DNA from: Ectocarpus siliculosus
Taxonomy: Eukaryota; Sar; Phaeophyceae; Ectocarpales; Ectocarpaceae
Direction: 5' to 3'
Length of the DNA stretch: 64,000 bases
Assembly (NCBI GenBank): GCA_000310025.1
Contig: FN649749.1
Span: 605,193-669,192, forward strand
Positions 49,201 through 64,000 of the stretch are shown piece by piece. Within the stretch, counting starts at the first letter, position 1, and every line of letters starts with the position of its first letter. The notes beneath the pieces were generated by a model. It was not told the origin of the DNA and did no database searches. It was given only the letters and a program-made list of their open reading frames with translations. Position numbers and translations under genes: made by a program.

Positions 49201-52200
49201 CGGGGAAACAACAATGCTCGTCTACAGACCAATCCTGAGATAAGCGCGTGGTACATAGCTCGGATGGAGAAAACCTCTCCTTTCGCAGGGCGGATGATCC
49301 CGGTGCAGTAAACGGAAGGGGAAAACAAAACAGCGGAAAATAACCCAGGGGTTTCCCACGGCGATAAGTTTCCGAGGGTGGTCGACAAAATAAACCCTTG
49401 GAGGGTTTCTGCGCTAACCGAGGATTAACGCCCACAACTCGACCATGCTCTTCGCGTGTGCTTTGGAATAGCTCGCAGTAAGGAAATGACATAAAAAGCA
49501 CCAGGCATGCGAAAATCCCACATGACCAGCCGTCTCTCTGCGATGTAGACAAGTTAGCTCGCAGCGATAGGATTAGGGTAAGAGTGTACAACAGGTCGAC
49601 AGTGCAGATTTTACGAAGAACGCCGAGCGGTGGACGCTATAGAAACGAAAACGTTGGGATTCGGGACTATGATAAGGCCAGTCGCTTCTACGATAAGGGT
49701 AGTCGCTTGTCTCCGAAACCTACATCACATATCTGCCCACCGCCGCCGGGATAACATCGGACACAGCGAAAGAAGTGCCACGAACGCGCGCGCGAACAAA
49801 AATGCTCGAAAAATAAGAAACTCAAATCTCGAGAGTCCACCCACCACCACAAGTCCAAGCACTCACCACGCACACGCCGCAGCGGACAGGACGAAGGCCC
49901 CGGCTCCGGTTAAGTCTGTCACCTTGTGAGTCTTGGTGGTCGCCGTGACTCCGAAGCCGATGAGGTTCGCCCCCCCTATCACTCCTGCTCAAAATGAAGG
50001 ACAAATAATCAATCCGTCAGCCACAAACACCAACTCATGGGCATCGATGGCTCCTCCTATCACCTATGCAACAGACGAAACATTTTACGCCGGTCCCCCG
50101 AAAGGTTAGCGCAGCAGCTGTGCCTCACGCACGATCCCTGTTCCAGAGTTTGGAAGACGAGGGGCGTACGGCACCATCGAGGCAGCAGCCGAGGCTGTGT
50201 GTATGATGTGTCACCTAAATTATTCACGCACAGTCTCTGTCGAGAGTGTATGGAAGAGAGTCATGAACGGCGTCGAAGCAGCAGCTGAGGCGGAGGCTGT
50301 GTGTTTTTTACTGAACATAAAGAAACCTGAACTTTTTGAAAACCAACCAGGCTAAAAACAAAGAGGAATCAAGTCCGGACACCCCGGTAAGGCTCAGCAC
50401 CTCCACATATGAACCCAATGTTGCAAAAGATGAAGCGATGATGGAGCCAATAGCTGGTTGCTCAACGACTAATGCTCCTGACCGGTGGAGGTGTTTCCGG
50501 GGCCTCACCGATTGGGTCGAAAACACTCTCGGCAGGACTCTTGGGTGAGCGGGAGCGTCAGCGCGAAATACCGCTTGCTTGATCACCGCACCAAACACGA
50601 ACGAACATCACACATGTACACACGACGAGCAGCACACACCATCCACAACTGTGCGCAGTAGGACGCCTTACTTCTGAGCCACATAACCGCCACTCGTGCT
50701 CGACGAAGGTCAAGTGTGCTAGACTACTGCTGTAATGGCAAGATGTCCAGTCTGCCCGGAGGTGACAGCTGGAGCACACTCTTCGCCCCTGCTTGACTAA
50801 TGTTTCAAGCACGGGCTTCGTGCGCTCTCCGTCTACGTGCTGTATTCCGGAGGTGGGAGGCGAAGGAATAGATGCGCACTAAACGCGTACACAATTTCCA
50901 AAACGTTTGCAACGCATATTGGTACATGTAGCACTGTGTTCATCGCTCTTTGTGCGCACGTACGATTGGTTTGCTTATACTGGCGAGCTAGAAAGCGGCA
51001 TTCTTTTCCCGACCATTTTTTCCAAATCTCACTCAGCACATGCACATGCAACCGCAACTTTGACCTCCGCGATACATGGTGCACCCACCTTCGACTATTC
51101 TACAACTGCGGTATGTACAACTATTAATATTATAGTAGGTTTGAACGTTGTGGTGGTTCTACTCTGCTCTGTACATACATGGAACATGCATACATACATA
51201 CCCGAATAACTGACCGCTGCTGGTCTGGTTGTATCCACAGCAATACTGCTGTTTGCATACACCCGGCTTGTTTCCGTTTTTCGGACTAGTTTGCCGAAAC
51301 TGATGCCGAAGGTGTCAAGAACAGAAGGAGAGACGGATATGACGATAGATATCCTTGTGTGCACGTGTGCACCGAGCAAATGGAGATTGGACGGTATTTC
51401 GGACCAATTTCCACGCTTCCCAGGGACCCGCGGGTAAGCGGTATCGCATGCACAAAGTCAAACAGTGAGGGACCCGACGAGAAGGGTACGTCGCAGCGGT
51501 GCCTACGATGACGACGGCATCCGCTCACACTTTTCCCCGACCAATATGCGTATGATATCGTAGTGCCGGAGGACAAGCCACAACAATAGTCACAAAAAGG
51601 ATATCAGTATGCATGTATCAATCTCTTAAGGACCTGTTGTTCGTATCCATACATGTATTTTCTATGATGTGCTTACAGATATGTTCACATGAAGTACATT
51701 TGTTTGGCTGCCAACGAACGTGTGTGGTGCTTCCTGCGCGTATCTACTGCTGTACTGGTCCACGAAAGTGCGAGAATAGGAAACTGCTCCATTGTGAACG
51801 GGACGACGATCCAGGCACCATCGCAAGAGCGAACGGTACTATATCTGCAACAGCAATCGTTGAACAGGAATGCTATGCTGCTGTTGACGGCGACGGCTTG
51901 GCCGCTTCACTTCGCATGGATGCGTGGATCCACAATTGATCCACCGAAAATACTTCGCACACAGCAGTCTCCACTCTACCGGTGACGCACACAAGCTGGA
52001 AGAAGCACGACGGATATGCACAGCATACAAGTACTCTATAGACAAAAATACGTGTGCCGATGACCGATACGCGTACAACAAGCCAAGCAACGCAGCACAT
52101 GAAGGGTCTTATACCAACACCAAAGCACGTCAAACCCAGAGAGAAAAAGGGGGTCGCATCATGGCTGATCGTCGACCCTGCTGCTGTACAATAATATGTA

Positions 52201-52364
52201 CAGCAGTCTCTGGAAGAGAGCTCTCGGTCCGACTTGCCTGCGGAGAATAGCAGCCCCGAGCCTCCTCCGGCCATCTTGAGCCCTGTGCGCGTAGAGAATG
52301 GTCTGAAAGCGGCAGCCGCACCACCTAGAGCATGACCGAAACCAAGCACACGCCCCGCCGCCAT
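46231..52364 (-). CDS. DUF1295 / steroid 5-alpha-reductase-like membrane protein, eight exons
   Basis: DUF1295 proteins are multi-pass membrane enzymes related to steroid reductases and isoprenylcysteine methyltransferases. The substrate here is unknown. Exons in transcript order: 52364-52238, 49984-49867, 49174-49062, 48598-48492, 48077-47934, 47514-47375, 46725-46603, 46306-46231. Phases close exactly to 315 residues. Diagnostic stretches in order: [68 protein letters not shown] (the family hallmark, residues 217-234), [16 protein letters not shown] and [13 protein letters not shown] near the end. At least five hydrophobic segments are visible. The N-terminus ([20 protein letters not shown], then RPFSTRTG) suits a mitochondrial presequence. 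The AAAAF string also resembles the heterokont plastid ASA-F cleavage motif, though the preceding hydrophobic core is weak. The first intron (2.25 kb) starts with GCAAGT, a GC donor. Confidence 0.92.
52186..52212. repeat. CTGCTGTAC...GTACAGCAG hairpin
   Basis: Nine-base perfect inverted arms are separated by eight A/T-rich bases. It lies in the first intron of the DUF1295 gene, about 30 nt past the donor. It is the clearest example of a motif scattered over the window. Confidence 0.75.
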
Positions 52365-53057
52365 GTTTCAAGGCGCTGCTGGCCCCGCCCTGCTGCCCTT
52401 GGTAGCGTAGCCTGTACTTGCACACACCACACGCGTCCGCTATTCGTCATACACAGCAGGGAGCCAGCGCGTTCACCCCACAGCACACCAGCTGCGGAAG
52501 CAGGAAGAGAAAAGAAGGAATGCCCCGTGGCGCTACAGCAGCACTACGCGAACAAGTATCACTGCTGTCTTACGAAGAAGCCAGTAGAACGTTCTTGTAC
52601 CCAACCGTCACACCAGCCCGCCGGGCCAGCCTCCCTCCGTTTGATGCTGCTGGTCGATGTTGTGTGTTTGTTCGTTTGTTCCTCCAGATGATGATAGTCA
52701 ACGAGTCTCTCTCGAACCTTTTTTTTTTTGGCACGCGCGGCACGTGACTGTCAAAACTTCCTTCGTGCGGGTTCCGCAATCTCGCTCTCTCTCTCTCTCG
52801 CAACCTGCTCAAAGACACCCGCGGCAGCTGCATCGCCCGAGTGGCCAGTAGACGACAGCCGGCCTCTCCTGCGGCGGGGGAACCACACGAGCTTAGCTAG
52901 GGGGGCGTCTCTCGAGAGGTGAGTGGCGACGATAGGAGTACCGCGCTCTGCCTCTGGAAAAGAAAGGGTGTGGTTGGGTCGCGAAGATTGGCAGCCCGCT
53001 CTCTCCACGCTCCACACCTCTTCCATTTTTTTCGTAAAACCGGCAGCAGTTGTGCTG

Positions 53058-53126
<69 letters not shown>

Positions 53127-56100
53127 CGCCACGGCGCGCACACCCACGCCTAGACCAATTGAACGCACCCACCTCAAGGTTGGGCTGATTACAGCTAGGA
53201 ACGGTACATTGCACACGGATTACTTGGAGCGCGCTTCAGAACAGCGTGCACGAAGCGAGGAGATGATGCTGGCTGTGCGCGGACATGAAGTGCCATCGTC
53301 TGTTTCAGCGTGTCTGTCACAAAAATACACAAAAGACAACATTGCGAACTCTCACGTAGCCTTTGTGTTGCTGACATCAGGCCAAAGACGGCGAGCAGTG
53401 CACCGCCTCCCTGCCGCACGAACATTGTCTTACCCGAGCAGCACGGCCGCTGCTGCTGCTGCGACTGCTGCCGCGCGGCTGATGCTGCTGTTCCGAGAGA
53501 GATGGAGAGTCCGGCGAACATCGGCAGCAGCGCCACGGAGGATTGATTGTCGAAACTGCTTCATAAAGATACGCACAACTTCACAACTTCACGAATGTTT
53601 CATCATGGAAATGCACCCTTTCATCACCCATCTCTCGCTCTCGTTGCTACACGGCGACGCCTCTCCATGTTGTTCAGCCACCATCCCCTCCGGCGTTGCC
53701 GAATCCCTGCCCGTTTCTGGTCCCCGCTCGGTAGGTCAGGCAGCTCGGCACTGACCCCATGGATGACACGAACTTTGCAACCACCACTTCGGTATTTTTG
53801 CCCTCGCAAATCTAGCAGGATAGGCCCCCCAAAGCACGTTGTTGTGCAGCGGGAGAGCTCACCTTTTTTCCGAAAGTGCTGCTGCCGCTGCTGCTGCTGC
53901 TGCTGCAAACAAAAGCAGTTGTATGCATCCGAGCGAGGGCGAGGCATTTGCTCGTTGTTGACTGTTTCATGGCCGTTTTCTCGGTGCTGCTGAAAAACAG
54001 AGCGCACCCGCTTGGCCGTACTGGCTACCCGGTGGTATTCACATTTTTTGCACACAATTGCTCGTTTGGTGGTGTTTCTTATGAAGACAAGAATCTGGGT
54101 ACATACAAGTACATACAGAACATATGTTGTAGATGTACCGTCATACGCTGCGAAAATTGGTGACGAGACACTTGAGGGGGAGCGACAAAGCTGGCCTCTT
54201 TTTCGTCGTTTGCTTCTCTCGCGAAGGCCGTGTGGGGAATAAATAACCTCAGGCGCGGCCGGTAAAGCAAGCACCACGTGTGTGTGTGTACAGCGTAGTG
54301 CAGTATCTGCGCGAGGATGCCGGAAAGATCGAAAACACTTGCCGCACTTCGTCCCAACCACGTCCGTCCACAGCAGTGCACAGGTTTTCGGACCGCTCGT
54401 ACCTCAAGGTGTGAGTCAAGTGGAAAATCGGGAATCTTGGCTTGGGCTGCAGACCTCTCTCTCTCTCTCTCTCCGCAAGCGCTGTGCGCGCGTGTTGTTG
54501 CTGTCTCTGGCCCCCATCTCTTAGCTTTGTGATGCTCCTCTAAGCTCCGTTTTGCATTTCACCGAAAACTCAAAGGATAAAAAAAACACAGCGACAACGT
54601 GAGAGAAAAAAGCTAAATATGGTGGTGCGTGCGTGTGCGTACTGTCCGGCAGTGGCTCGCGGTTTTGTAACAGCAGCAGTTTTGGCCCGGGTGATCTCGT
54701 CCTCACTTGATTTGTGCTATCTCAGCACTACAGACCATTCATTACTGAAAAGACTACCCGTTCGAGAAAGTACCGCAACAGCAGTTGTTGTATTTGTCTT
54801 CGCATAAAGTTACAATGGCAAGAGTACCGGCCGCTGCAAAATGGTCGGTGCATTCTTATTTCGAGCAGTCAGTGGGGAAGGAACCTGCTTTTTGAAGCAG
54901 GGCTGTGCCCCTGTCGAGAGAGAACAACAGACGAGGTTCTCTTCGCTCTCGGGAGAACAAGAGGGACAGCAGCAGATAACAAGATTGTGGTGTTGTAGCC
55001 CCCCCCCCCCCCCCTCCCCCAGACTCGTGTTTGGTGTTTTTTTTCGTGGCAAGAGCGTGTACCCCTGCCCTACCTTCTCCCTTTCGTCGTGTTTGGTCGT
55101 TCGTTCGTTACGCGCAAACGTGTCACGGATGCTGCCCCGCACTGCTGTTCGGTACCTTGGTTGGGTACATCCGTGCATGTTATTTTTCCTCCTCGTCTTC
55201 TTCTTCCAATAATTTCCCATAATTTCCGACGAGTTCCCACCGGCAGGCTATGACGTAAGCAACACCACACTGACATTTTTCTGTAGGTGGTCGTCAGCGC
55301 ACTGCTGCTGCTTGTAGCAAAAAACTCTTTGGCAAATGATTGGCGGAGAAGATCGAGAAAAGAAGACAGCCGCGGCGTGGCGTGTGCCCCAACCGCTCGC
55401 CCGCCCACGCGCGTGTTGGCTTGCAACCTAAATATTTAGTGTTGCTATGCTATACTCGCTCGTACAGACATTCGCACCTCATCCAGCTCGCACTCTCGCT
55501 GCCCACTTGTGGATATGGTTGGGCGGTCCCCAGACTTGAACAACTCACGTTCATGCATGTGCATGCGCTTGCAGTGCACCAGAGCCAAATATTTTCTCGT
55601 TTGCCCGTCTTGTCTCTGCTGTAATTTTTTTCAACGTCATGTGTGTTGGGTGTTGGTTACTCAATACAGAGAAGTATTTTTGTTTGTGCGTAGTTGCGTA
55701 AAAAAACACAAAACATGAGTTTCCTATGAAGTCATTTTTATTTCCTTCGCCCCTAAAACCCAACAATCATTTGAGTTCAGTGGAAAACACCTCAATCTTT
55801 TTTTTTGCGGTCATTTCAAGTAATTTCCGAATGTTGTTTCAAGTCGTGCTACCGGAGTATCATACTTGTATGCATGTGCATAGATCCGCTACTGCTGTAC
55901 CGAGGAGAGCGGAAAGAGAGAGAGAGAGAAGCACAAAGACGCCGGAGACCATGCCACCCCGTGCGTTAAGAAACGCGGATAGGATAGGATAGAATAGGTG
56001 CGTGTTGACTTGTGCAGCGATGCCTTGTTCTTCTTTTCCATTACTTCTGTTGCGCCTATTTTCATGGTTGTCCCTGCTGTCTTGTGGTGTTGGTTGGTTA

Positions 56101-57270
56101 TTTGTGTTAATTTTATCGTCGACAAGACCTCGGGGCTCTTCCATATAGGCGTGGTGTGCATGGCAGCAAGAAATTGTGCAGCATTTTGAGTTGTACGGCT
56201 GTGCCAAGTTCCTGTGGTGTGCCGTTTTTATTTTGTTTGAATGGTTGTTTTTGATCAGGGACATGTTCAGGCAGTAGTACACAAAAGAAGACAAGAAGTG
56301 ATAGAATTTTCGGTGGCCTTCAGGGATTTGTGGACCGAGTTTATGGCGAACGCGTATCGACCAAGGATTGAAGGCACTTGCAGAAATGGAAAAATATGAA
56401 ATGTGAAAAAATATGGTGTGAACGAAGGTCCGCTGACGCGTCCGGCCAGAACGAAACCGTAACCGTTGGGAGCCAACCGAGAGCGTGAGCGTTTTGGAAC
56501 GGTGCCCACCGCTTCATGTGCGTCTCCCTGGAGAAGGGCGTGTTGATTTCAACGGTCTTGATCTTGCGTTCCGTTATTTTAAGTCTTTCGAAAAGCAAGC
56601 ACGCTTGCTCTCTTCCGTCGGGGGTTCGGAAAATCTACAAGTAGCCATTTATCGGTACAGCATCAGCCTTGTCCTCTATCCGAGTCACCAGTGAAGGTCG
56701 GTAGGCGCAGGAGACGGCACCCTTGCTGCGGCCGCAGCCCCTTTCCAGCTGGTTGTGCCGACAGCAGCTACGCAACGTTCCAAGACTTACAATACCTTGA
56801 TTCTTACCGCCAACAGCAGTTTGGCATTCGTTGGCGGTTTCGGCGACGAAACGCGTTCCTGTCATGGAGCGTGATCTGTCCGCCCGTCTTCGTGAGGTGC
56901 AACAGCGTTGGTACAGCAGTACCCCAACTGATCTGTACGCCAACCGTCTTGTGGCAAGAAGACGAAGTAAAAGTTGGTGAGCCCCTTGTCTTGCACCTGG
57001 GAGTGAGTGCAACATTGGCCCGGCATCCATCCACACGACCCGCAGCCTGATCAGGTATCTATTTGCCACCCTCCCAAGTTTGCCGGCGCTGACATGTCCT
57101 TTGTTCGATTCTTGCTTCCCCGCGTGTTGCTGTCCGCTTCGCCCTCGGCGCCAGGTTGAGGAAACCAGACTCACTCATTTGTATCCCGCGCCCGGGCGAC
57201 CTGGACAAGCAAGCCCCTCCGGCGAGCAGCCAGGGCTACAGCAGGGGCACACTCCGCCCCGCGTGGACTA
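52365..57270. other. Spacer between divergent DUF1295 and ankyrin genes
   Basis: This is about 4.9 kb without a supported gene. It is rich in simple repeats: GA/CT runs (52785-52800, 53093-53120, 54456-54475, 55914-55930) and CTG/GCT runs (53055-53090, 53445-53475, 53877-53907), plus a C tract at 55000-55015. The longest frames (53050-53754 plus, 53624-54361 minus) run through these repeats and match nothing I know. Both promoters should lie here. Confidence 0.55.
53055..53121 (+). repeat. (CTG)n next to (GA)n
   Basis: About ten CTG/GCT units run directly into about fourteen GA dinucleotides. Confidence 0.9.
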
Positions 57271-58998
57271 ATGGAAGGAGGCAAGAACGGCAGCGTCTTC
57301 GACAGAGCCTCGCTTCGCGGCAGGGGGGAGGACCTCCTCGTCATCGTCCTGAAGCGCAGCAGCCGGGCCCAAAGCACGGAGTGGCTCCGGTTCCCCAGGG
57401 TGCTCTCCCCGGACGCCAAGTGCCTGCTGCAGAAGAGGGAGCAGTGCTGCGAGATCCGCCGCAAGGGCGAGGACATCCTCGAGTTCGTCATGGCGCGGGC
57501 GTCGGACGAGCAGTGGTGCAGGTGGCTGCGCTTGCCGTTGGAGCACGCCGTGGAGGCCGGCAAGGGGTGGTTGGTCGAGCCGCTGCTTGCGGCCGGAGCG
57601 GGGCTCGCCGGCGCCGTCGGCGGCGGCGGCCGAAGAGAAGGCGGAGGGAAGGGAGCGGGTACCGCGGCGGTGGCGGTGCCGGGGCCTGGCAAGCCCAGCT
57701 GTAGCGGCGGCGGTTGCAGCGGCGGTTGCAGCGGCGGTGGGTCCGCCCCGCCTTCCCCGTCACAGGAATCCCCCTCTGTTTCTACACCGGCGTCCTCGTC
57801 GTGCGGCCACACGCCCCACCGCACCCCCGTCAAACAACAAGCGGGTTTGGATTTCGCGTGGGCCTGCAGCGCTCCTTCCACGCCGCCGTCGTGCTCTACC
57901 GGGCCGCCTTCTATTCGGCCGGATGGAGGCGAGCCGTCAGCTTCGTCCGGCTGCAGCAGGAACTTCGGGAGCCAAGCACCACCGTCCTCTCCGCGGTGCG
58001 GTTCCCCAGGAGCCAGCAGCTCCCCGTCTCCATCTTCTTCCGGTTCCACCTCCTCGAATGGGTCCGACCACGCGTCGTCGCATTCCCCCACGGCCGCCGC
58101 CATCGCCAGCGTAACCAGCGACCCCCTGTGCCTGCACCGCGCGACCATGGCTCGCGACGCGGGCCTCATGCGCGAGCTCTTGGCCGCCGGAGTCGACCGG
58201 AACGCGGTCGACCTCTGGGACTGCACGGCCTTGCACCGCGCGGCCGAGCAGGAGCGGTCCGCGGAGCACGTGCGGCTTCTCCTGGCCGCGGGGCTAAACG
58301 TGCGGGCGCGGGATATGGAGGGTTACTCGCCGCTCCATTTCGCAGCCGCCCGCGGCGCCGAGACCGCGGTCGTGGACCTTCTCGCTGCCGGGTCCTGCCT
58401 ATCGGACCGCGGCAACAACGGCGACAGCCCGCTGCATAGCGCGGTCCGGTTCCTGTCCCTCCCGACCGTGCGCATCCTGCTGGACTCGGACGCGGACGAG
58501 GCGGCCAAGAACAACGACGGTCAAACGCCGAGGGAAGTGACCGGCGTGCACCCGGACGGCCGGCCGCTGGAGAACCAGCCCGGCCCGGTCGTGCCGCGTA
58601 AGATCGTGGCCCTGCTCGATGCCGCCGTGCTGCGGCGCAAGTGGAAGCGGCGCGGGTGGCTCGTCATGCTCCGGGCCAGGGCCCAGAGGCAGGCGGCTCT
58701 CGAGCTGGTCGAGGCCGCGAGGACCGGCTGCGTGGTGATCGTACGAAAAGAGGACGAGGGCGTCGCCGCGGGGGGCAGTGATGCCGAAGCCAGACCGTGT
58801 GAGAGCGGGGCTGATGGCGGTGGCGAACCGGAGAAGAGCGAACCGGAGAAGGGGTGTGGTGGTGGTGGTGATCGTGATGGGTGTGGTGGTGGAGTGGCAG
58901 TGCCAGAGCGAAACCAGTCGGAATTTTATCATCTCGTGGGGCAAACGACTCTTCTGACCGAGGAGGGCGTGTTCCAGAAGGTCGTGCAGTTTTTGTGA
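57271..58998 (+). CDS. Ankyrin-repeat protein, single exon
   Basis: This is a 575-residue frame with no intron needed. The first ATG follows directly on a TAA-overlapping context at 57270. Residues 1-115 form a conserved-looking helical block (LRFPRVLSPDAKCLLQKREQ, ILEFVMARASDEQWCRWLRL, PLEHAVEAG) that I recall at the front of many brown-algal ankyrin proteins. Residues 115-283 are a G/S/P-rich linker. About four ankyrin repeats follow (about 284-425), shown by TALHRAAEQ, SPLHFAAARGAE and SPLHSAV. A basic helix LRRKWKRRGWLVMLRARAQR (about 448-470) is IQ-like, and the tail is glycine/glutamate-rich with GGGGDRDGCGGGVAVPE. Ankyrin repeats bind protein partners; no catalytic domain is visible. 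GC content is much higher than in flanking DNA, and it throws long shadow frames on the other frames and strand. Confidence 0.88.
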   Translation: MEGGKNGSVFDRASLRGRGEDLLVIVLKRSSRAQSTEWLRFPRVLSPDAKCLLQKREQCCEIRRKGEDILEFVMARASDEQWCRWLRLPLEHAVEAGKGWLVEPLLAAGAGLAGAVGGGGRREGGGKGAGTAAVAVPGPGKPSCSGGGCSGGCSGGGSAPPSPSQESPSVSTPASSSCGHTPHRTPVKQQAGLDFAWACSAPSTPPSCSTGPPSIRPDGGEPSASSGCSRNFGSQAPPSSPRCGSPGASSSPSPSSSGSTSSNGSDHASSHSPTAAAIASVTSDPLCLHRATMARDAGLMRELLAAGVDRNAVDLWDCTALHRAAEQERSAEHVRLLLAAGLNVRARDMEGYSPLHFAAARGAETAVVDLLAAGSCLSDRGNNGDSPLHSAVRFLSLPTVRILLDSDADEAAKNNDGQTPREVTGVHPDGRPLENQPGPVVPRKIVALLDAAVLRRKWKRRGWLVMLRARAQRQAALELVEAARTGCVVIVRKEDEGVAAGGSDAEARPCESGADGGGEPEKSEPEKGCGGGGDRDGCGGGVAVPERNQSEFYHLVGQTTLLTEEGVFQKVVQFL

Positions 58999-61490
58999 AA
59001 GCTAAGGTGAGAAAGAGACGCGCCGGCGCGTTCGTTTTTTTTTCTGGTGCTCTGCTGTACCGCTGCTGTGTGTGTTGTACGGGGAAGGGAGAAATGCTGT
59101 CGGTACATGTCGATAGCTCGCTCGCTGCCTCTCCACAGGTTTTACCCGGATAGGCGTGCTGGTATAGAAGGAAACCAGGCCGGAGAGGTGTAGCACGAAC
59201 ATAACGTACCATATAGTATCTGCTGGAGAGAGACAGGATCCGCACCCGCAAATAATGCCATTGCGATCGAGCCAAGTTTGATATTTTCTCCATTCCTTCC
59301 TTCCGCACTGCCGCCGCTGCCGGTCTTGTTGCCGACGTCGCCCCCGTCTCCCCTGTTTGCTCTTCCGTGTTGACCTTATTTCTAAACCGATTAACGCGTG
59401 AGCCAGAGGCCTGGAGCCAGCGAGGTGACACCGTTGTTGTGTGGGGTGCGACAACAGGGATTGGGCTGTGTTAGTCCAGTCAGGTCGTGGGTTGAATTCA
59501 CCTATTTATTCATGCGGTCAGCTTGTTTTTTAGTCCGGCCGGCCTGAACTACTTTTGACGGTGGGTTTGGTGAGTTTGTCGGGGTTAGACGTTGCGCGGA
59601 TGACAATTGTGTGTTAGTTCCTTTTTTTTTGTCGTTTTCTTGCTTGTGTTGTTGTTCGTGGTAACCGTTGAAATGATGGATGATTGATTTTGTTACCTGG
59701 CTGTTTGGTTTAATTGACTTCATGACGAAGCGGTGTCTTTTCGGGATAGATGCTTGGATTCGTGAGACCGAACTTGAAGCGTAGACACTAGGAAGAGGAT
59801 GGGGTTCATGATGGGTGGGTGGGTGCGTGTGGATCGATTGAACCGGGAGGGGCTGTATGAGGAATCTTGACTTTCGTGCTTGGGGGGGAGGGGGCGCGCA
59901 TGTGCTTGGCGCTAGGTAGGGCATTTTTTGTTTCGTGTTAAGGGATCTCTTGGTTGTGTTTTGTCGGTCTTGTTCTCTCTTGCTTGCATTCCGGAATGTT
60001 GCGTGCCATGTGTCCTCGTGTTTGTTCGCAGCGTTGGGTTTCCTCTTGGGAAGCAGCGGTGACATTAGTGGTCGTAGTGGTGTACAGGAGGGCGTTGGGA
60101 GCGAAAAGCTGAAGGACGGCGACGACGAGTTGTTGTCGTGTCTTGGTTTCGCTCATCAAGTCCTCAAAAGGGTAGAATTTTCGAGCCATCGTGCTCCCCT
60201 TGTGTATTTGTTTTCTTGTTTCATCGGGCTTTCGATTGCTCGATCGTTCCCGAGGTGTCGCTGCCAAGAGCAGCGAGCGTTGGCGTTATGTTGCCTGTTT
60301 CTTCCGCGTTTGGTGGCACACCCGTCGCGATTTTGACGGCACAACAACACTGGCACGGGGCGGGGGTGTTATCTATCGTCCCCCGACCTGGCGGACCACG
60401 AATTATCTTCGAGCAATCTCATGGGGTGAATGATTGACTCGTTGATTTGCTTGGATCATTCTTGTTGTCATTTTCGGGTCGATTTTATCCCCACCCCTCT
60501 TCTCGGTATCTATAGTAGGATATTTTATTGTCGGACACAAAGCCAAGCGGTGATTATTGTATTGCCTTATTTTCGGACCAGCTTTGCTTTGGTGGCAGGA
60601 AGGGAGCCTATTTTTGTTCGACAATCAGGAACAAAGGACGGGCCAGGACACCACGTGTGCAGACGTGGCAGTTGATGAGGACAGGAGGGGTCACAGCAGG
60701 CTCGAAAGCCTGCCAAATGGGGGGGGGTGAGGTTGTTCGACGTGGAAAGAGCCGTTCGAGCATGACTCGCAGCCTAACGTTGGAAACGACATGGAAGTGG
60801 CAGCGTACAGGAGATTTAGTGACTTCAAGGGCGCGGGGGGGGGGAGTTGTGTACAGGGGCAGGCGGGGTATTGGCGGGGGGCTAGTGCGCATCGCTTGTG
60901 TAAGGTTGGTTTGGTTCGCAAATGCTAAACCGAAGCGCTCTGTATTTTGCCGTGAGAGGCTGTCGTGGGCGAGGGGAGGGGGCGACGTGTTTGAAGTCGT
61001 CGGAGGGTGGTTGTTTGGCTTTTTGCTGTCAGCGCATTGAGAGTTGATCTGAATCAGGGCGCATCTGGTTGATGGTAAGAGTCTACAAAATGTTAAAACT
61101 CAAAAGCGACTTGCAGAAGAGCGAACACAGGAGACAACGGAGTGTCTATCCGCGGCAGCTGTAACATTATTCTTTTTTTCACAACGCAAAGACAAAACAT
61201 AACATAACAAGAGCGTTGACAACTCAATCTATGAGCAACCCGTTTGTGAAGCAGGCGGCTTTCTTTGCGGTGGGCAGTTTTCAATCTGTGATCTATCTAT
61301 CTCGTGTGGTGTATCGGTTTCGACCATTCATCCATCGGGTTGCGGATTATTTGATTATTTGACGCATTTCGGACAAGTGGTGTGGTGAGTTCTCTTGGCA
61401 ACTAGGACGGCGAAGGCAACAGAAGTAGGGTGTGTTGTTGCACCTTGTTGCGTCGCAGTGCAGCTCGGACACACGCCGGACGCGCCCGGA
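58999..61490. other. Spacer after the ankyrin gene
   Basis: I see no supported gene. A 170-codon plus frame at 60528-61040 is glycine/arginine-rich, has no splice logic and matches nothing I know. Short C/G homopolymers occur at 60720-60730 and 60835-60845. Confidence 0.5.
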
Positions 61491-61491
61491 G

Positions 61492-64000
61492 ATGAGAAAA
61501 GCCTTCCGCGAAAACATGAGTAGCTGTCTGAACTGCTCGGATAATCACCATTCCGTGAAGCAATGCGCTTCGCCGTTCACAATTCTAGTGGTTTGCTGAA
61601 TCCCGAGCTGGGTAATCTCAATGACGATTCTTCTGCTGCTTTTAGGCGTTGGCAAAAGGCCGCATGCGGTCTTTCCGTCGCAAAAATTCGGACGGCCGCA
61701 ACACCAGTCAGGGTAGACGCAACCAGCGCTCTTCCTCCTCCGCCTCTCAGAGTCGAAACCACGCTGGGACTCGCCGTTCTGGCGATGGGTAGTTCTCCTC
61801 CCGATCACCAGCCATAGTCACACAACAGTGGTCACACCCCGGGAATTTTGCGGGTAGCCATCACACTACACAACACACGTCTGGCAACACCCACCACGCT
61901 GGTGCTCTGTCCGTCTACCAACCCCACCCGCATGCTCAAACCGATCCTTCGTCTGGCATCATGGTTTCGACCAATCACAACGCTCGCCAACCTGATCATT
62001 TCCAAAATGGTGGCCGTTCTCGCACAGGATGACTCATCGACGGTGGTTCGCCTCCCCCCCTTGGACCGCCTCCAGCAACTTCGGGGACTTCGTCTCGTTC
62101 ATGACAAGACGTGCGTGCGTGTGTCACGCCCTGTTGCGTCGAACCCTTCGGTTTTACGCAACACCAATAATACTTCGGTACTGCTGTTTTTCCTTCACAC
62201 CCTGTTGCCTCTAACCCTTCGGATTTACCCAACGCCAACAATAATACTTCGATACATATGTCATGTTGTTCCTTCATGTCCTGTTGCATCTAGCACTTCG
62301 GTTCTATGCAACGATAGCAACACTTCGGTGAATGTTATCCCTACGCACTCTACTGCCCCTAGCCCCTAGTATTCCAGTGCTATGCAATAACATCGGTACA
62401 CGTTGTTTCTTCAAGTGTTGGTCGGGTCGGTATCAAGCCAAACGCTCTCATCCCACCTTCACCATCACACTTGCAGCACCATCTGCGACCCCTGCACCCT
62501 TGACTCTTCGGATTGATGCTCCGTCGGAAACTAACCAGTCTGGCCCGAGTACTGTCTTGAGGTGCGGGAACAGGCCCGTAGGACCTTCGGGACCATTGAG
62601 TGCCGCTCGTTCGTCGGGCACCGCTCGTTCGCTCCCCCCCCCGTCGTCTGCAGATAAGACCGGCCGTAGCCATACGCTTCGGACGATTGATGAGGAATCG
62701 CCTGATTTTGTTATCCCGGGCGAATCTTCGGACGCGCTCCATTCGTCTGTGTGCGCTTCCGTTGAGGGTCCGCCCTCGACCGTTGCACCGGTAGCTAACT
62801 TGATTGGTTCCGACCGGCAAGTTTCAGGATCAAATTCGCCTGGCTTCGAATCACCTTGTTCCCGCGGTTCCGACCATCGAACATCATCAGATTCCGCCAC
62901 GAAACATTTCGACCATGGGTCGTCATTGCACGCCCCATTTCCTCCGACGCACGCTTGCACAGAGGCGCCTAATAGTAGGACGCCGCGACCGACGTCGACA
63001 GTGCTGACACCACCGCTTTGGGAGGACCCTCCCGGAGTGACCTCCCAACCGCCGGCAGTCTCGCGTGTACCTTGTCACGGGGGAATGGCCAGGAGCACCA
63101 CGCGCGGCTCAGTTCTTTCACTGGCCCGGCCTTGGCAGCCGTTCCTAACGAAAGAGGCCTGTTGAATGACATCTTACGAGGCGTTTCTTCAGGTTTATAA
63201 TTGGAGCGCACGCAGCATCGAGTCACTGGCATCAGACTTCGGTCGATCCTTCGCCGGTCCCTGCCGTTGCCGGGACCACCCCCACGGATATCCATGTCGT
63301 CAAACCCAACACGGGCGTTTTGCCCGCCACGGCTTCGGCTGCAACACCAGCTTCGGCTTCAGCACTCAGGGCACTTTGGCTGGCCCCTACAGCCCCGGCT
63401 GTTTTTTCGATCATTCTACCGAGTATTGTACTCCTGACATGGCACTTTTTTGGAAGCCCCCCTCTCGTTTTCCCCAATGGACACCGTCGACTTTTGTTGT
63501 GGTTGATGGAGGAGTTGTTTACTTGTGTGCTGAGCATTTTTCGCTATGGAAAAAGCTCGTTTTTTTCGAAGACCACAAAGCTTTGCAGAACATCATGCGA
63601 GCATCCGACCCTGCCTTACACAAGCAGTTTGGCCGCGCAAAGTCCGTGGATGCGACCAACCTATTGGGAACGAGAGCACGAAAACATTGTGCTCACTGGC
63701 TCTTACGCAAAATTTAGTGAAAACTCCGAGTTACGAGATCATCTTCTCGGATCTGGTGACAAAATCCTTGCCGACGGAGCCCCTTCGACCGTATTTGGGG
63801 CATTGTCCTTCAGGCCGATGATCCCGACGCTCGATCAACGTCTCGATGGCGCGGTCTCAATTTGTTGGGAAACGCCCTCCAACCATGCCCCGCCTCCCGA
63901 GCGCAGCTCTCGTTTGCTGCCTTCCAGCGATCAAGTTTCATCGTCATCTCTCCGTAGCGCGGTGCACGAAGTTAGGCTTCGCGCCCTTCGTTGACTGAAC
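61492..64000 (+). mobile_element. Retroelement-like fossil with zinc knuckle and NADAR remnant
   Basis: The unit starts with a CCHC zinc knuckle (CLNCSDNHHSVKQC, about 61525-61566), typical of Gag proteins of LTR retroelements. R/S/H-rich sequence and an S/P-rich low-complexity region (about 62400-63165) follow. From about 63400 to the window end there is similarity to the NADAR family (YbiA-like N-glycosidase fold), for example GGVVYLCAEHFSLWKK. It looks broken: the similarity is spread over more than one reading frame, with at least two breaks. No LTR, protease, integrase or reverse transcriptase is visible, and the right part is cut by the window edge. The assignment to an LTR-type element rests on the zinc knuckle alone. 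A captured host gene next to a Gag-like fragment is the alternative. The age cannot be judged. Confidence 0.45.
62124..62400 (+). repeat. Imperfect 70-80 bp tandem repeat inside the fossil
   Basis: Three to four units each begin CCTGTTGC(G/C/A)TC, continue with CACTTCGG/CCCTTCGG, then CAACACCAATAATACTTCGG or a variant. They encode a PVASNxSVLxNxxNTSV-like peptide period. The last unit is strongly diverged. Confidence 0.6.

Follow-up and report, generated by a model that had tools for sequence, protein, structure and literature searches.

A decayed NADAR-bearing Gypsy-type retrotransposon of Ectocarpus siliculosus and a candidate function for its NADAR domain

NADAR-bearing retrotransposons have been described before. 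Dinatale et al. (2025) reported one lineage of Ectocarpus Gypsy elements, Gypsy-12_Ec32 for example, in which Pol carries NADAR at its N-terminus, and a chromodomain is also reported for this lineage (PMC12477816). The same paper names Tx1 LINEs of Crassostrea gigas whose ORF1 contains NADAR, terming these matches divergent, and in its main text the terms readthrough, read-through, stop codon and frameshift have 0 mentions. We found no further report of such an element in the literature searched, which took in few subscription papers.

The element kind was therefore already described in 2025, and the copy presented here is a worn member of it. What is added is the UGA-C junction between gag and pol, the conservation of the active site, the selection on the domain, its tight linkage, and the observation that its nearest relatives are stand-alone bacterial YbiA-type proteins. 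The interest lies in a testable function of the element NADAR rather than in novelty of kind.

The element at the right window edge

The window is the whole 64,000-nucleotide stretch of DNA that was analysed (G000:C24:605193-669192), and the genome searched was the 189-Mb assembly of 492 contigs. Using blastn, the window was found to align with family copies (L013, L017, L028, L029 and L030) at ~80–85% DNA identity, and the left edge of the similarity falls at the same position, 61499, in 5/5 of them; the start of 61492 given by the earlier note was right to within 7 bp. The right edge lies at about G000:C24:675406, ~6.2 kb past the window and ~86 bp short of the start of the L013 3' LTR, while the left part of gag is absent from this copy.

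Table. Features of the window copy, and two loci with N-rich open frames
Feature	Position	Strand	Basis
5'-truncated decayed LTR retrotransposon (Gypsy-type, NADAR lineage)	61499..64000, in-window part	+	blastn, five family copies
gag remnant, 3' part	61499..62029	+	82% identity to L013 over 616 bp
Gag zinc knuckle CX2CX4HX4C, CLNCSDNHHSVKQC	61525..61566	+	motif
gag stop UGA then C, in-frame pol start; putative readthrough site	62030..62032	+	junction pattern and relatives
pol N-terminal linker	62033..63447	+	alignment to L013 pol
NADAR remnant (PF08719), frameshifted, with stops	63448..63882	+	Pfam in two frames; tblastn
Beginning of pol stretch 3' of NADAR	63883..64000	+	comparison with L013 pol
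L020, 10887-aa 'open frame' with N runs	G000:C3:3913787		NADAR match list
L023, 6365-aa 'open frame' with N runs	G000:C489:435177		NADAR match list

Apart from the knuckle CLNCSDNHHSVKQC, none of the six window frames holds a stop-free CX2CX4HX4C. Pfam at E<=1 gave no family for the window ORF that holds it, so the call rests on the motif and on the DNA identity of this part to the L013 copy. Among relatives, a CCHC motif was present in 11/11 gag ORFs, starting 100–167 residues before the ORF end. For NADAR, PF08719 matched two overlapping plus-strand frames of the window, one with E=4.5e-7 and 30.7 bits (profile 2–76) and the other with E=3.1e-8 and 34.5 bits (profile 35–124). Both are just under the gathering cut-off of 35.1 bits because a frame change splits the domain. 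Taken frame by frame there is thus formally no NADAR profile match above threshold, an outcome that the earlier note had set against its own proposal, whereas tblastn with the intact element NADAR of L013 identified the remnant at E=3e-41 in an alignment interrupted by stops and a shift of frame, and the DNA alignment to the family covers it.

The 1.8 kb between knuckle and NADAR had been taken for low complexity, which proved incorrect: it aligns to relatives as the tail of gag, the UGA stop and the pol linker, and Pfam at E<=1 gave no match for the linker ORF at 62332-63165. Past the right window edge, remnants of RT (E=1.5e-8), RNase H (1.8e-28) and Integrase_H2C2 (2e-11) follow in that order, as had been anticipated for a pol region there (Pfam on L009 frames; L009 position + 60000 gives the window coordinate). 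These remnants, the alignment to family copies, which runs from the left edge onwards, and the same order in better-preserved copies support the first proposal, that the same-strand knuckle and NADAR are parts of a single LTR-type element whose pol lies to their right. We rejected the possibility that the two are chance neighbours, given this alignment, the genome-wide NADAR–RT linkage and the gag CCHC of relatives.

The element was also correctly described as decayed, with its frameshifted and stop-containing NADAR, its truncated 5' end and no recognisable LTR. When the whole window was compared with the L013 5' region, which holds the L013 5' LTR, there was no match; the right side (L010) matched L013 only until 86 bp before the 3' LTR, besides short matches elsewhere, and comparison of window positions 50000-62500 with the right side gave no direct repeats of use for LTR finding. 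Across the RT stretch the window copy and L013 differ at 10, 12 and 30 sites of codon positions 1, 2 and 3, respectively, compared with 14, 6 and 77 between L013 and its sister family L018. On this stretch the window copy is closer to L013 than L018 is, and the share of its differences at first and second positions (22/52, against 20/97 for L013–L018) is as expected for decay under relaxed constraint.

The surroundings of the element hold two further open frames. About 2.5 kb to its left lies a 612-codon ankyrin-repeat frame (57160-58998, plus strand; Ank_2 E=5.3e-17), and to its right a 390-codon frame on the minus strand (L010:1689-2858) contains many runs of Ser, Asn and Gly; other frames there have long tracts of Leu, Ala and Gln.

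Relatives in the genome

The full plan seen in relatives is LTR, gag with CCHC, in-frame UGA, pol and LTR, and within pol the order is linker, NADAR, protease motif, RT, RNase H and integrase. NADAR occupies pol residues 301–452 in L014, 384–533 in L011 and 444–594 in L013. Pfam analysis of six pol ORFs detected NADAR, RVT_1, RNase H and H2C2, with rve in 4/6: above the cut-off in L013, L011 and L017, under it in L014, and not found in the shorter frames of L025 and L019. The protease motif LLDTGSP/LLDSGSP stands between NADAR and RT in 5/5 pol ORFs searched, all from relatives; at the cut-off, Pfam gave no support for the gag CCHC or the protease, with RVP_2 at E=0.043 in L019 only. A PF00385 chromodomain behind the integrase reached E=0.092 and 0.083 in pol ORFs of relatives, below the cut-off, and Pfam found none in L032 or in the frame with which the window copy ends.

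LTR pairs were present in 3/3 relatives whose flanks were fetched, with lengths of 315, 299 and 269 bp, identities of 99.0%, 99.7% and 100%, and 13.0, 14.3 and 13.5 kb between LTR ends, respectively. The same domain order with flanking LTRs, which the earlier note had suggested looking for in other copies, is thus found, and the near-identity of the pairs indicates that at least three families moved recently. Two relatives also show short duplications at their flanks (CTTT and AGGG, judged by eye). The combination of RT–RNase H–integrase order, LTRs, CCHC and protease motif in relatives points to an LTR retrotransposon of Ty3/Gypsy type. In L031 and L033, from two families, TGGCGTC and, after it, GGCAGGA lie a few bases past the 5' LTR and probably form a shared primer-binding site.

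We evaluated the linkage of NADAR and RT across the genome. Searching with the NADAR family, the best 150 of 230 candidates were scored and all 150 were above the cut-off; searching with the L013 RT, the best 150 of 432 candidates include the window copy, at 84% identity and with one stop. The RT of the lineage lies downstream on the same strand in 125/150 NADAR matches listed, at a distance of 671–2688 bp (median 1627), compared with 0/150 for RT upstream on the same strand and 0/150 for RT on the opposite strand within 4 kb. Likewise, 125/150 RT matches listed have an upstream NADAR. The matches listed that have no partner (25/150 NADAR and 25/150 RT) include L020, which has a downstream run of N, and the RT of the window copy, whose NADAR is too broken to enter the NADAR match list. 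The count uses RT and not the integrase, for which the best 150 of 658 candidates were scored. The earlier note had considered NADAR an uncommon cargo, which this linkage contradicts, the domain being a standing part of the lineage.

Besides the window copy, tblastn found NADAR at 27 loci, which represent 26 copies because L001 and L021 overlap on one of them; 7 of these were used for the domain alignment and 12 for the tree described below. The giant proteins read from L020 and L023 are probably not real, as these loci contain 4889 and 1231 N, respectively. A diverged NADAR copy, L026 (G000:C33:2208143-2218142), has blocks of ~150–860 bp repeated at 80–91% identity, perhaps from nested or duplicated elements.

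The gag–pol junction

In relatives from four families, gag and pol share one frame and are parted by a single UGA-C at 11/11 junctions located. Four further stops, namely two TAA, one TAG and a TGA lying in a broken frame, do not represent the junction. A junction pattern for the window's family, in which the codon was left free and the CTCATCG after it was fixed, had 42 matches in the genome, 41 of them with UGA and the window copy among these 41; the sole exception reads GGATGT... (C110), and the reversed control of the pattern gave 1 genome match. UGA is absent from the interior of pol frames of >2000 codons, which indicates that it is a stop here.

Readthrough is the simplest reading of this in-frame UGA-C, and it would join NADAR to Gag. 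A search for stable RNA structure 3' of the UGA gave nothing convincing, with MFE z-scores from -1.95 to +0.42 over the 11 junctions (100 mononucleotide shuffles each). A UGA also parts gag and pol in Tca2 of Candida albicans, where the junction alone is reported not to have directed readthrough in yeast (PMC2194720), a precedent which suggests that such a junction need not work by itself.

The NADAR domain and its possible role

The NADAR of Phytophthora nicotianae contacts ADP-ribose through E43, K50, R79, W89, R93, E125, D130 and W133 (PMC11543638). When the contact and catalytic residues of the P. nicotianae and E. coli C7 NADARs were transferred through a phmmer alignment to 8bau, the counterparts in a seven-domain alignment were E28, K35, R62, W72, R76, E108, D113 and W116, each invariant in 7/7 element NADARs; in the window copy the mapped active-site region is broken (tblastn). 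A lysine required for DarT1 rescue, K115 in E. coli C7 and K75 in P. nicotianae (PMC11543638), falls on element K58, which is likewise invariant. The bacterial L037 and L038 have this lysine too, so it does not single out an antitoxin role. Since a Glu at the place of E125 marks the YbiA subfamily (PMC11543638, PMC11125620), the element domains, with this Glu (E108) and the active-site Glu and Lys (E28, K35) in 7/7, have the residues of that subfamily.

These residues bear on what the domain might do. NADARs of several subfamilies are reported to hydrolyse guanine-ADPr (PMC11125620), the activity that we tentatively favour for the element domain. Counting against it, TIGR02464, the riboflavin-intermediate N-glycosidase and thus a different reaction, was the best NCBIfam match by name, at 146–151 bits in 3/3 element domains, about twice the cut-off of 73.7. 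The domain might accordingly act, within the particle or the cell, on small molecules (riboflavin intermediates, free ADP-ribose derivatives or NAD-linked signals) and tune or blunt a host response while leaving element nucleic acid untouched. We consider this unlikely, as the fusion into Pol beside RT would place NADAR with nucleic acid, and NADARs in RNA-virus polyproteins have been argued to target macromolecular ADP-ribosylation (PMC9503650). A role as a binding module, docking on ADP-ribosylated chromatin or element RNA and aiding targeting or packaging, has a precedent in the chromatin-reader domains that all four Gypsy lineages of Ectocarpus are reported to have in some of their families (PMC12477816). 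A domain that served only as a reader could dispense with the catalytic Glu and Lys, yet these are invariant along with the binding residues, and we therefore judge this role rather improbable.

We next consider selection. The NADARs of six other families are 58–79% identical to that of the first family. Six pairs compared between families have saturated synonymous sites (pS 0.74–0.88), and their pN is 0.23–0.33 for NADAR and 0.23–0.32 for RT. That the protein is kept between families at such synonymous divergence argues for a working part and not a stray cargo. In two closer family pairs NADAR evolves more quickly than RT, with nonsynonymous figures of 51.8 versus 21.5 and 50.5 versus 11.5; for L013–L018, dN was 0.166 for NADAR and 0.061 for RT with dS near saturation, and for L014–L025, omega was 0.19 and 0.014, respectively. 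As estimated from these comparisons, the element NADAR is constrained, and in the closer pairs less so than RT. Five near-identical pairs gave NADAR omega values of 0.15 to 1.2 on 5–14 changes, and one near-identical pair has 4 nonsynonymous versus 1 synonymous change. Such counts in the youngest pairs are too small to reveal constraint, and the pair with an excess of nonsynonymous changes is what might be seen if NADAR were passive cargo, captured once and carried along. Set against the identity retained between families at saturated synonymous sites, pN values like those of RT in six pairs, and the RT linkage in most NADAR matches listed, this account appears highly improbable.

The nearest relatives found outside the element are bacterial, from a Planctomycetota MAG (59% identity), a Polyangia MAG (58%) and a deltaproteobacterial MAG (55%), and in the bacterial L037 and L038 NADAR forms its own short ORF of 174 and 189 aa, respectively. 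Neither phage records (681 matches, each under 60%, top 56%) nor viral contigs (only 4 relatives, at 29–37% identity) come closer than the top bacterial matches. A tree of 81 rows, made by a quick ML run, comprised 12 element NADARs, 65 of the 70 cellular relatives (L101 and L103–L106, short or remote, were omitted) and 4 viral ones, with in-frame stops read as X (1 in L097, 5 in L100); its scope did not extend to eukaryotic and phage-record NADARs. The 12 element NADARs fall on one side of a branch with an SH-aLRT of 83, which is not strong, and their neighbours are Myxococcota, Planctomycetota and some alphaproteobacteria. A single acquisition of NADAR by the lineage is likely on this basis. 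The most likely origin, though weakly supported, is that a stand-alone YbiA-type protein of bacteria was transferred once, long ago, and has since been inherited with the element.

Our preferred explanation, which we put forward tentatively and would not yet call probable, combines these observations. Gag of the better-preserved copies ends at the UGA-C stop, with Pol next in frame, and readthrough would yield a Gag-UGA-Pol product that includes NADAR (Gag-NADAR-PR-RT-IN). This product would be packed into the particle and its parts freed by the protease 3' of NADAR. NADAR would then act as an ADP-ribosyl-guanine (N-glycosidic) hydrolase on element RNA or cDNA. It would take off ADP-ribose marks that otherwise stand in the way of reverse transcription, be they placed by a host defence or by general nucleic-acid ADP-ribosylation. 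To our knowledge there has been no enzymatic test of an element NADAR. A role in processing the RNA intermediate of transposition, with no link to defence, has been suggested in print for the NADAR lineage by Dinatale et al. (PMC12477816); the paper, so far as its text was available, names no RNA substrate or cleavage step, and we regard this suggestion as distinctly doubtful.

The guanine-ADPr explanation can be narrowed to a counter-defence, in which the lineage packs its own ADP-ribosyl-guanine hydrolase through the UGA-readthrough Gag-Pol against a host ADP-ribose block on its RNA or cDNA. This version is improbable in our assessment; were it true, brown algae would mark invading nucleic acids with ADP-ribose. 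In the host genome, exon-by-exon searches, in which absence is weak evidence, found no DarT and no KptA, and for PARP only four fragments near the cut-off. No host enzyme that marks nucleic acids was thus found, which counts against the defence version. The four PARP fragments and one Macro domain fragment (C455:326723, E=1.3e-7) were the only matches to the four ADP-ribose families searched (PARP, DarT, Macro and KptA). The EsV_1_7_cys family is expanded in brown algae, and for its motifs the best 150 of 880 candidates in this genome were scored, in keeping with a brown-algal source.

That a retroelement lineage has kept an ADP-ribose hydrolase domain under constraint while its families diverged suggests a bearing of ADP-ribosylation, perhaps that of nucleic acids, on algal retrotransposition. 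As NADAR is small, with solved relatives and published assays, the idea is directly testable.

Compared with known systems, the element domain resembles bacterial YbiA and DarT1-associated NADARs in its domain family, its ADP-ribose-binding and catalytic residues and its YbiA-type Glu (PMC11543638, PMC11125620); those proteins, as described there, are however stand-alone or operonic with no retroelement, and the algal genome gave no DarT match. Like the NADARs of positive-strand RNA viruses, it is embedded in a replicase-type polyprotein of a eukaryote parasite, although those viruses infect animals; the likeness noted here is one of arrangement (PMC9503650). Tca2 similarly has a UGA between gag and pol but is another element, the abstract of its report making no mention of NADAR (PMC2194720). 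The Tx1 LINEs of Crassostrea gigas are also retrotransposons with NADAR, but non-LTR ones, with the domain in ORF1 (PMC12477816). From the NADAR-Gypsy lineage of Dinatale et al. the window copy differs in being a decayed fragment, and the chromodomain here is below threshold, but it shares with that lineage the placement of NADAR on the N-terminal side of Pol (PMC12477816).
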